Virus record (IMG/VR): IMGVR_UViG_3300002835_000311
Location: 1 to 48,318 of that record
Strand: one strand, 5' to 3'
DNA length: 48,318 nt
Source: a virus
The translations under genes and the position numbers were made by a program. This document shows positions 1 through 2,095 of this stretch, piece by piece; the stretch's first letter is position 1; each line of letters starts with the position of its first letter. A model generated the notes under the pieces. It searched no databases and had not been told where the DNA came from. It worked only from the letters and a program-made list of their open reading frames with translations.

Positions 1-75
1 ACGGAGCTGTTCCTTAAGATGGGTAAGAATGCTTCGGCAAATCGTCTTCGTGTGTCTTTGATGGGGGCGAATTAG
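1..75 (+). CDS. Possible 3' end of an upstream gene (partial)
   Basis: Frame 1 is open from the window edge for 24 codons and closes with TAG at 73-75, giving a basic C-terminus that ends RLRVSLMGAN. The fragment is too short to recognise. The open frame may be chance, because the stop lies inside the conserved 5' end of the tmRNA piece that begins at 63. If the gene is real, it overlaps the RNA gene by about 13 bases. Alternatively this stretch is part of a precursor RNA upstream of the tmRNA coding piece. Confidence 0.35.
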   Translation, partial: TELFLKMGKNASANRLRVSLMGAN

Positions 76-229
76 GCTCGACAAGCGTAGAATAGTGAAT
101 TGGAGATAACCGAGAGGCGACTGTCGTATACAGCGCAAATTCTAAATGCAAACGATAACTTTGCACCTCGTTTGGCTCTAGCAGCCTAACATGCGCCAGG
201 GGAGGGCGTGGAAACAGAACCTCCCCACC
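63..229 (+). ncRNA. ssrA: tmRNA coding piece (split, alphaproteobacterial type)
   Basis: Transfer-messenger RNA rescues stalled ribosomes by adding a degradation tag. The 5' end (GGGGGCG, 63-69) looks like a tmRNA acceptor-stem strand and is followed by the D-loop-like GGCTCGAC at 75-82. A hairpin (117-124 with 130-136, bulged A120) sits where pseudoknot 1 ends. It is separated from the resume codon GCA (148) by 11 bases, the same spacing I count in E. coli tmRNA. The tag frame is 148-189. A 7-bp G+C-rich hairpin (199-205 with 220-226) follows. There is no T-arm, no pseudoknots 2-4 and no acceptor CCA downstream, because a protein gene starts at 255. This fits the coding half of a two-piece tmRNA. 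The acceptor half is not visible in the window. The exact ends are estimates. Confidence 0.85.
148..189 (+). other. tmRNA tag reading frame
   Basis: GCA (148-150) to TAA (187-189) encodes ANDNFAPRLALAA, 13 residues. Seen: it starts ANDNFA and ends in a hydrophobic LALAA. Known: tags start AND and end in small or hydrophobic residues read by ClpXP, and the encoded Caulobacter tag, as I remember it, is also 13 residues and begins ANDNFA. Inference: tagged proteins would be recognised by the host SspB and ClpXP machinery. The middle (PRL) differs from the acidic residues usual there. Confidence 0.85.
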
Positions 230-254
230 TTAACACACAACACAGGAATATAAC

Positions 255-509
255 ATGTCAAAAACTCCCTACGAAATTCGCTTTGATCTTTTGGCAATGG
301 CCCAATCAATCATCACAGAAAATCTAATGAATGAACGCATTCGTCTAGAGAATGATTGGAATCTTGATCGTGAGAGGGCATCTATCGCCCTATCACAGAA
401 CAAGGAAGTTGAACTGCCTCCTTTCCCAAATGTACCAACCATTGATCCTAATCAGATCATTGAACTGGCGAAGAAACTAAATGAATTTGTATCAAAAACT
501 GGAGAATAA
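255..509 (+). CDS. Conserved small T4-superfamily protein, function unknown
   Basis: An 84-residue soluble protein with no signal peptide or membrane segment. It starts at ATG 255, 7 bases after AGGAA. The N-terminus (MSKTPYEIRFDLLAMAQ) and the helix-rich, charged layout resemble a small hypothetical protein common in cyanophage-type T4 relatives. That resemblance is from memory. A proline-rich turn near residues 54-64 separates two helical parts. It lies just after the tmRNA piece and 2 bases before the DUF992 gene, whose Shine-Dalgarno (GGAG) is inside its last codons, so the two are probably co-expressed. I cannot assign a function. Confidence 0.75.
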   Translation: MSKTPYEIRFDLLAMAQSIITENLMNERIRLENDWNLDRERASIALSQNKEVELPPFPNVPTIDPNQIIELAKKLNEFVSKTGE

Positions 510-511
510 TA

Positions 512-967
512 ATGATTAAGAGAACTATTGCTGCGGCTCTCATGGCCGTTGGACTAATGGCAGGCACCGCTCAGGCTGATGGTGTCAATCTAGGCACTCT
601 CACATGCCATCTTGATGGCGGACCAGGTCTTATCATCGGGTCTGTCAAGCACGGTGAATGTGTATTCACTCAGACTAACGGAAAGAAGAAGCACTATCGC
701 GCAACATTCTCGCGTCTTGGCGTTGATATTGGCGTGACTGGCAATCAGGCTCTTGTCTGGGCAGTCTTTGGCGTCGATGGTCGGTCAAACGGCGGACTCA
801 AGGGTGTCTACACTGGTGTTAATGCCGAAGCCTCTGTAGTCTTTGGTGTTGGCGTAAATGCTCTCATCGGTGGTCTGGAATCAGGTATTGTACTAAATCC
901 TGTGTCTGTTTCAGGTCAGACTGGGCTAAATGTAGCGGGTGGAGTTGCTACTCTCAGGTTGGAGTAA
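512..967 (+). CDS. Secreted DUF992-family protein
   Basis: A 151-residue protein with a clear Sec signal peptide (basic MIKR, hydrophobic core, probable cleavage after AQA at residue 22). The mature part reads as a glycine- and valine-rich beta protein. GTLTC near residue 28, a second Cys at 50 (likely a disulfide with Cys32), FGVDIG in the middle and GQTGLNVAGGVATL at the C-terminus match DUF992 as I remember it. That family is found mainly in Rhizobiales and their relatives, and its function is unknown. The protein is expected in the periplasm or outer envelope. It directly precedes the envelope cassette at 1003-3674. It looks host-derived, which argues for an alphaproteobacterial host and for a role in modifying the infected cell's envelope. 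Confidence 0.8.
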   Translation: MIKRTIAAALMAVGLMAGTAQADGVNLGTLTCHLDGGPGLIIGSVKHGECVFTQTNGKKKHYRATFSRLGVDIGVTGNQALVWAVFGVDGRSNGGLKGVYTGVNAEASVVFGVGVNALIGGLESGIVLNPVSVSGQTGLNVAGGVATLRLE

Positions 968-968
968 T

Positions 969-977
969 CACTAAATA
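969..977 (+). promoter_or_regulatory. Weak late-promoter-like motif before the envelope cassette
   Basis: CACTAAATA lies 25 bases before the ATG at 1003. It is one substitution away from the ATAAATA core of T4-type late promoters seen elsewhere in the window. A GAGGA Shine-Dalgarno follows at 992-996. The gap between 967 and 1003 is the only space in the cassette for a promoter. The call rests on the motif alone. Confidence 0.3.
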
Positions 978-1002
978 ATAAAAGCAACAAAGTGAGGACC
1001 GA

Positions 1003-1458
1003 ATGAGATTAGTTAAACCTTTTTATATCTGGTGGATTACAAACTTAGCTGTGGCAACTGGTGTATTCTGGGCATGGCACAGCGGTATTATCGCCAAGAT
1101 TTGGTATGATGATGTGACTATGATCACTTCGGTCCTCTCACTACTCTACGTAGTAACAACTGCTCTAATCGGCTACGTAGCATACACTAAAGATTTTGCC
1201 AGCAAGATTGTAGATGCCTGCTGGTTTCTCTCCGAGCAAATGTTAGCCCTTGGTATGTTAGGTACAGTTGTCGGCTTCATTTATTTGCTTTCATCTGGAA
1301 TCACATCCGCTTCTGTAACTGATCCTACAAGTCTAGCAACTCTTCTCGCAAACATGTCTGTTGGTCTAGGTATCGCTTTATATACGAATGCGGTTGGCAT
1401 TCTCGCAAGTCTTGTAACAAAGGGCTTGCTATATGCGGTAACATATGATGAGCCATAG
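1003..1458 (+). CDS. MotA/TolQ/ExbB-like proton-channel membrane protein
   Basis: A 151-residue integral membrane protein. Four hydrophobic segments are visible at about residues 8-28, 41-61, 80-99 and 112-142. The last two carry the hallmark of the MotA/TolQ/ExbB family: LGMLGTVVGF at 83-92, then ANMSVGLGIALYTNAVGI at 116-133. Known members form inner-membrane channels that use proton (or sodium) flow to drive a single-helix partner. The next gene overlaps by 14 bases and encodes such a partner, as in exbB-exbD and motA-motB pairs. The protein is shorter than typical ExbB or MotA and lacks a large cytoplasmic domain. It is distinct from Zorya ZorA, which has a long tail. The motor function is inferred. 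Confidence 0.75.
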   Translation: MRLVKPFYIWWITNLAVATGVFWAWHSGIIAKIWYDDVTMITSVLSLLYVVTTALIGYVAYTKDFASKIVDACWFLSEQMLALGMLGTVVGFIYLLSSGITSASVTDPTSLATLLANMSVGLGIALYTNAVGILASLVTKGLLYAVTYDEP

Positions 1459-2095
1459 AAAGTTTGATTTCCGTACCGCATACATCGACCTGCTTATCAA
1501 CCTGCTGACAGGCACGGTTGTTTTATTCATTCTTACTACCCTTCTCATCGCACCAATCACGAAGAACAGCGAAGGTATCAAGAAGAATGCTGACTATGTT
1601 CTATCTCTAGAATGGCCCAACGATATGGACTGCGATGTTGATATGTGGGTTCGTGATCCGCAGAACAACATCGTATCATACAAATTCCCAGAAGCGGGCT
1701 TGATGTATTTTGAGCGCGATGATATGGGCAAGCGTAGAAGCGTCTATCAGTTAGACGGAAAAGAAATCATAATTGATCCCGACAACAAAGAGTTCGTCAC
1801 TCTTCGCGGTACATTTCCTGGCGAATACGTATTAAACGTTCATGTGTATTCGTGTTTAAGGTCAACTCTGGCCACTTCTGCTGCACAACCAGGATCGCCA
1901 GTTAACGTTCCTATCATTGTAGAAATAATCAAAATCAATCCGTCTTATTATGTTGTGAAGCATATTGAGTTGACGATGGAAAGTATTTGGCAAGAAAAGA
2001 CGGTTGTTCGTTTCACAATGGATAGCAAAAAGAACATCATTCGATTCAAGAATGACTATGTTGGTATCAGAACAGGACAGAATAAATCGCCATGA
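1445..2095 (+). CDS. ExbD/MotB-like single-helix protein with periplasmic beta domain
   Basis: 216 residues. A short basic N-terminus is followed by one membrane helix (about 12-36) that begins AYIDLLINLLTG. The Asp near its start sits where ExbD, TolR and MotB keep the ion-carrying aspartate. Residues 50-130 read like a beta-sandwich of the YfaP/DUF2135 type (DVDMWVRDP, then GLMYFERDDMG, then FPGEYVLNVHVY). That match is moderate and from memory. I see no peptidoglycan-binding OmpA motif. The start is one of two consecutive ATGs (1445, 1448). The gene overlaps the channel gene before it and shares ATGA with the next gene, which suggests coupled translation and a fixed stoichiometry. Confidence 0.6.
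   Translation: MMSHRKFDFRTAYIDLLINLLTGTVVLFILTTLLIAPITKNSEGIKKNADYVLSLEWPNDMDCDVDMWVRDPQNNIVSYKFPEAGLMYFERDDMGKRRSVYQLDGKEIIIDPDNKEFVTLRGTFPGEYVLNVHVYSCLRSTLATSAAQPGSPVNVPIIVEIIKINPSYYVVKHIELTMESIWQEKTVVRFTMDSKKNIIRFKNDYVGIRTGQNKSP

Follow-up and report, generated by a model that had tools for sequence, protein, structure and literature searches.

A tmRNA coding piece at the end of a T4-like phage contig almost certainly belongs to an ordinary permuted ssrA gene, in which the IVS may serve as a dock for mobile genes

The left end of one viral record presents what appears to be half of a gene, namely, the coding piece of a tmRNA, and this raises the question of whether the phage carries a coding-only RNA or whether the other half lies beyond the end of the DNA. 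The stretch analyzed here (the window) is a whole linear IMG/VR record of 48,318 bases, and its first base falls inside the ssrA gene. Records classed as linear in IMG/VR are often fragments, and no terminal overlap between the right and left ends of the window was found. The initial annotation had placed a tmRNA coding piece at 63-229, and both its coordinates and its parts were correct as judged by cmscan, with two Rfam models above their cut-offs. There was one tmRNA match only in the window, to RF01849 at positions 1-229 (54.4 bits versus a cut-off of 50; E = 1.9e-12) and to RF04321 at positions 1-189 (65.5 bits versus a cut-off of 47; E = 1.7e-10), each carrying the 5'-truncated flag. The RF01849 search of the whole genome that had been suggested as a check gave no match, and ARAGORN made no tmRNA call on the window, both as expected with a truncated gene.

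All of the features of this RNA lie on the plus strand. Positions 1-62 were recognized as the 3' 62 nt of a 69-nt intervening sequence (IVS) from the identical sequence in two contigs, L009 and L032, that hold the IVS in full. The coding piece starts at 63-69 with GGGGGCG, the 5' strand of the acceptor stem, followed by a D-loop-like region (AATTAGGCTCGAC, 70-82, placed by the Rfam model alignment) and by the P2 strand GATAAC (105-110). By direct reading, the tag frame ANDNFAPRLALAA runs from GCA to GCC at 148-186 and is followed by the stop codon TAA at 187-189, and ARAGORN gave the same tag in intact relatives. This frame (148-189 with its stop) is short and has a hydrophobic ...ALAA end before the TAA, as in permuted tmRNA. 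The coding piece closes with a G+C-rich 3'-terminal hairpin at 199-226 (GGGGAGG...CCTCCCC, 199-205 pairing with 220-226), which is supported by the sequence, the fold, and the end of the RF01849 match. The GGGGGCG strand, the tag, and the single hairpin before an open reading frame (ORF) at 255, as initially noted, were all confirmed. The ORF itself (255-509, plus strand, 84 amino acids [aa]) lies outside the RNA, adjoins ssrA in relatives too, and had no Pfam match above the cut-off and no PHROG match.

The remark that no acceptor piece was in view proved true of the window, in which neither cmscan nor a scan of both strands revealed a second acceptor piece (a T-arm, 7-mer, and CCA able to pair with GGGGGCG). 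The acceptor piece is missing because the record begins inside the gene, 7 nt past the CCA. Viral contigs were scanned with a tag-region pattern, which yielded 32 loci. L009 aligned from window base 1 over 1,744 nt at 99.94% and L032 aligned from the same base over 5,561 nt at 99.98%, and both contigs then continued upstream into TTGGAC-GCGGG-TGCGATT-CCCGC-CGCCTCC-ACCA, that is, a T-arm, an acceptor strand, and CCA. Thus, the first of two alternatives offered by the initial annotation, an acceptor piece of the phage's own upstream of position 1, was seen directly. The CCA stops 7 nt short of window position 1, placing the contig start inside the 69-nt IVS; the window DNA lacks the acceptor piece and the first 7 nt of the IVS (AAGACAC), which are known from these near-identical contigs. 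The CGCCTCC of L009 and L032 forms 7 of 7 pairs (one of them G-U) with GGGGGCG, and GTTATC of the acceptor piece pairs with GATAAC in P2. The untruncated gene of L032 scored 135.3 bits with RF04321 and 101.5 bits with RF01849, and intact relatives were called by ARAGORN as permuted tmRNA genes. In the precursor fold, a 13-bp helix closes the IVS; its 3' strand, TTCGTGTGTCTTT, is at 46-58 on the plus strand and is also supported by the statistics of IVS-end helices given below, and its partner strand, AAGACACACGGAG, ends at window positions 1-6.

Positions 63-229 are thus almost certainly the coding piece of an ordinary permuted two-piece ssrA gene that is complete in a T4-like myophage and was truncated here by the contig end. 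The phage type was read from baseplate wedge proteins; by the gp6-like protein (37% identity), the nearest phages included HTVC008M of Pelagibacter and the Methylophilales phage Melnitz. No nucleotide relatives of window positions 1-1500 were found among named phages. The gene order would be an acceptor piece (T-arm, CGCCTCC-ACCA), a 69-nt IVS, and the coding piece. A single precursor would be transcribed, from which tRNA-processing enzymes would excise the IVS, as in alphaproteobacterial two-piece tmRNA, and the acceptor and coding RNAs would then be held together by the acceptor stem and P2. With the acceptor charged with alanine and with the help of SmpB, presumably that of the host (no SmpB gene was found within the 48,318-base fragment), the RNA would rescue stalled ribosomes and append the ...ALAA tag. 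The gene structure and the conserved pairing were read directly from the DNA; expression, processing, charging, and rescue by the phage tmRNA are proposed by analogy with the mechanism in the Melnitz literature, which comprises a precursor, IVS removal, two base-paired RNAs, and trans-translation (PMC9004378).

Indeed, a phage two-piece tmRNA has already been described in Melnitz (MZ577097), a T4-like phage carrying a permuted ssrA gene of the alphaproteobacterial type, and 53 unique two-piece tmRNA structures have been counted among phage genomes (PMC9004378). As in the gene studied here, an acceptor piece with CGCCTCCACCA is followed by an IVS and then by a GGGGGCG coding piece with an ANDN tag. 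Judged by the baseplate wedge protein, Melnitz is distantly related; its tag differs, its IVS is 142 nt long and contains an ORF, and the ORF downstream of its ssrA gene has no detectable similarity to window positions 255-509. The part order, the acceptor stem, the P2 pairing, and the conserved TGCAAACGANAAC at the start of the tag region are likewise shared with alphaproteobacterial permuted tmRNA (RF01849/RF04321; PMC11915505), from which the present gene differs in being phage borne and in that the IVS of its phage relatives is exchanged and may hold HNH genes or small ORFs.

The locus set was widened by a broader pattern scan and a protein-neighbor scan. Among the matches listed, at least 131 distinct acceptor-IVS-coding genes were parsed automatically, and the acceptor-stem 7-mers were paired at 7 of 7 positions in 131 of 131 genes, candidate acceptors for this set having needed at least 6 of 7 pairs. 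Seventeen stem combinations were represented among these listed matches, many of them compensated, including CGCCTCC/GGGGGCG, CACCTCC/GGGGGTG, CAGCTCC/GGGGCTG, and CATCTCC/GGGGATG. P2 pairing averaged 6.52 bp with a gene's own acceptor versus 6.07 bp with swapped acceptors (standard deviation of the swaps, 0.06), a contrast inflated by sequence relatedness, and compensated variants of P2 were seen (GTTATC/GATAAC, TATTATC/GATAATA, and TGATTC/GAATCA). The two-strand binding energy predicted for the window's pair was not separated from that of shuffled acceptors (28/100); since binding energy does not discriminate, the evidence for half-to-half pairing is comparative. A first regular expression had left many loci without an acceptor, and those with enough upstream DNA were settled by ARAGORN, by a less stringent scan, or by inspection of the printed DNA. 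Acceptors that the parser had missed were shown by ARAGORN in L041, L042, and L160 and by the printed DNA in L132 and L150, some of the other unmatched loci were cut by the contig or locus end, and L194 and L204 resembled one-piece (standard) tmRNAs.

The second alternative in the initial annotation was a coding-only phage RNA that pairs in trans with the acceptor RNA of the host and so reprograms host ribosome rescue. A window that holds no acceptor piece is what such an RNA would predict, but an acceptor lies 7 nt upstream in near-identical contigs, and P2 pairs better with its own than with swapped acceptor pieces. Moreover, among the matches listed, every viral coding piece with sufficient upstream DNA has an acceptor. 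Because L009 and L032 have a normal acceptor piece just upstream, the coding-only branch was rejected; it would now require that this particular genome had lost its acceptor piece, which we regard as most improbable. Two pattern scans of the genome collection for the phage tag, sought there as a host tag, gave no match. Rejecting the coding-only branch removes a false lead, as a coding-only tmRNA would be a new kind of host takeover, whereas here the missing half is a contig-end artefact. We also considered whether the locus might be a degenerate remnant, for example one left behind when a phage integrated into a host ssrA gene or excised from it imprecisely. Fragments of ssrA are indeed known in prophages (PMC9004378), but in the sister contigs the gene and its tag are intact, changes in the stem are compensated, and the neighbor gene is the same, and the relatives are T4-like phages, many of them carrying the gene, so that a remnant appears very unlikely.

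With the locus read as an ordinary permuted ssrA gene cut by the contig end, the finding itself is ordinary, and the only part of real interest is a side result that concerns the IVS. The content of the IVS, that of the window included, swaps between phages as a unit and independently of its flanks. The window-type 69-nt IVS, whole in L009, was 100% identical in L018, although the acceptor piece was 69% and the coding piece 80% identical, and L036 and L038 also have it. When L018 was compared with L024, L045, and L047, the flanks were 98 to 100% identical and the IVS just 53%. Shared stretches of this kind may be the cause of contigs ending at the ssrA locus, where assembly breaks occasionally occur. 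At the IVS ends, a helix that extends the acceptor stem had a mean length of 8.7 bp in 119 unique IVSs versus 3.2 bp in shuffles. In a separate pair, L015 and L016, the tmRNA halves were identical and the IVSs were 73 and 28 nt long, the 45-nt gap being either a true deletion or a hairpin assembly artefact.

HNH genes were present in five distinct IVS cassettes, those of L004 (104 aa; also in L006, L023, and L112-L115), L008 (151 aa; also in L233), L013 (142 aa), L043 (144 aa; also in L044), and L234 (154 aa; L234-L238). The L004-type protein matched PHROG HNH endonucleases at 90.5 bits, and the L013-type protein matched a PHROG homing endonuclease at 45.7 bits; with Pfam HNH (cut-off, 21.4), L013 and L043 were above the cut-off and the other three were below it (21.1, 17.5, and 21.0 bits). 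Between L008 and L005, a relative with an IVS only, the flanks were about 95 to 96% identical (150 nt per side), and the difference was concentrated from the acceptor strand to just past the 5' strand. In all five cassettes, the acceptor stem was altered on both strands compared to the commonest version, yet 7 of 7 positions were paired. The CGCCTCC stem occurred in 0 of 5 HNH cassettes versus 76 of 126 other genes (Fisher P = 0.012) and, within the ANDNFAPR group, in 0 of 4 versus 17 of 21 (P = 0.006), both comparisons being limited by the few cassettes and by common descent. In a 2025 survey of 97,179 tmRNA sequences, a tRNA-Ala and a repetitive element are mentioned within permuted IVSs, and homing genes are mentioned only in T-loop group I introns (PMC11915505). 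Our searches of the open-access literature turned up neither HNH genes reported within the IVS of a permuted tmRNA nor a published description of wholesale IVS exchange with HNH cassettes.

Small ORFs are present in other IVSs, and for several of these ORFs dN is much lower than dS (dN/dS of 0.05/0.25 for L186/L195, 0.39/1.75 for L133/L158, 0.18/1.04 for L217/L169, and 0.16/1.04 for L178/L185). A Shine-Dalgarno-like match was present in 22 of 38 small IVS ORFs, a fraction biased upward because the choice of start favored such matches. Taken jointly, these observations tentatively suggest, at slightly less than even likelihood in our judgment, that the IVS of phage two-piece tmRNA genes, including that of the window, is an exchangeable cassette and a dock for mobile HNH genes and other small cargo genes. 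Since ordinary tRNA processing would remove the IVS, it could work like an "intron" that needs no splicing and gives shelter to a homing gene. Under this hypothetical homing mechanism, an HNH cassette would bring both altered strands of the stem, so that its own nuclease could spare the occupied allele, guarded by the altered but paired stem, while the tmRNA stays functional. The excised piece of split tmRNA genes would then be an overlooked niche for mobile genes in environmental T4-like phages, and this niche may explain the occasional assembly breaks noted above.

Some further features of individual IVSs were observed. In L161, L168, L175, and L203, the IVS is just 10 to 12 nt long, near a simple loop linking the halves. 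Small IVS ORFs also occur in L166, L191, L119, L120, and others. The product of the L186 IVS ORF is similar to membrane proteins of the DUF2061 type (22.3 bits versus a cut-off of 23.1), and L195 has a closely related ORF. Finally, in the record of the cultured phage Melnitz (MZ577097), the IVS (L243:6099 onward) contains an unannotated ORF, MFKWLSKTRLVV..., that has a GGAG resembling a Shine-Dalgarno sequence.
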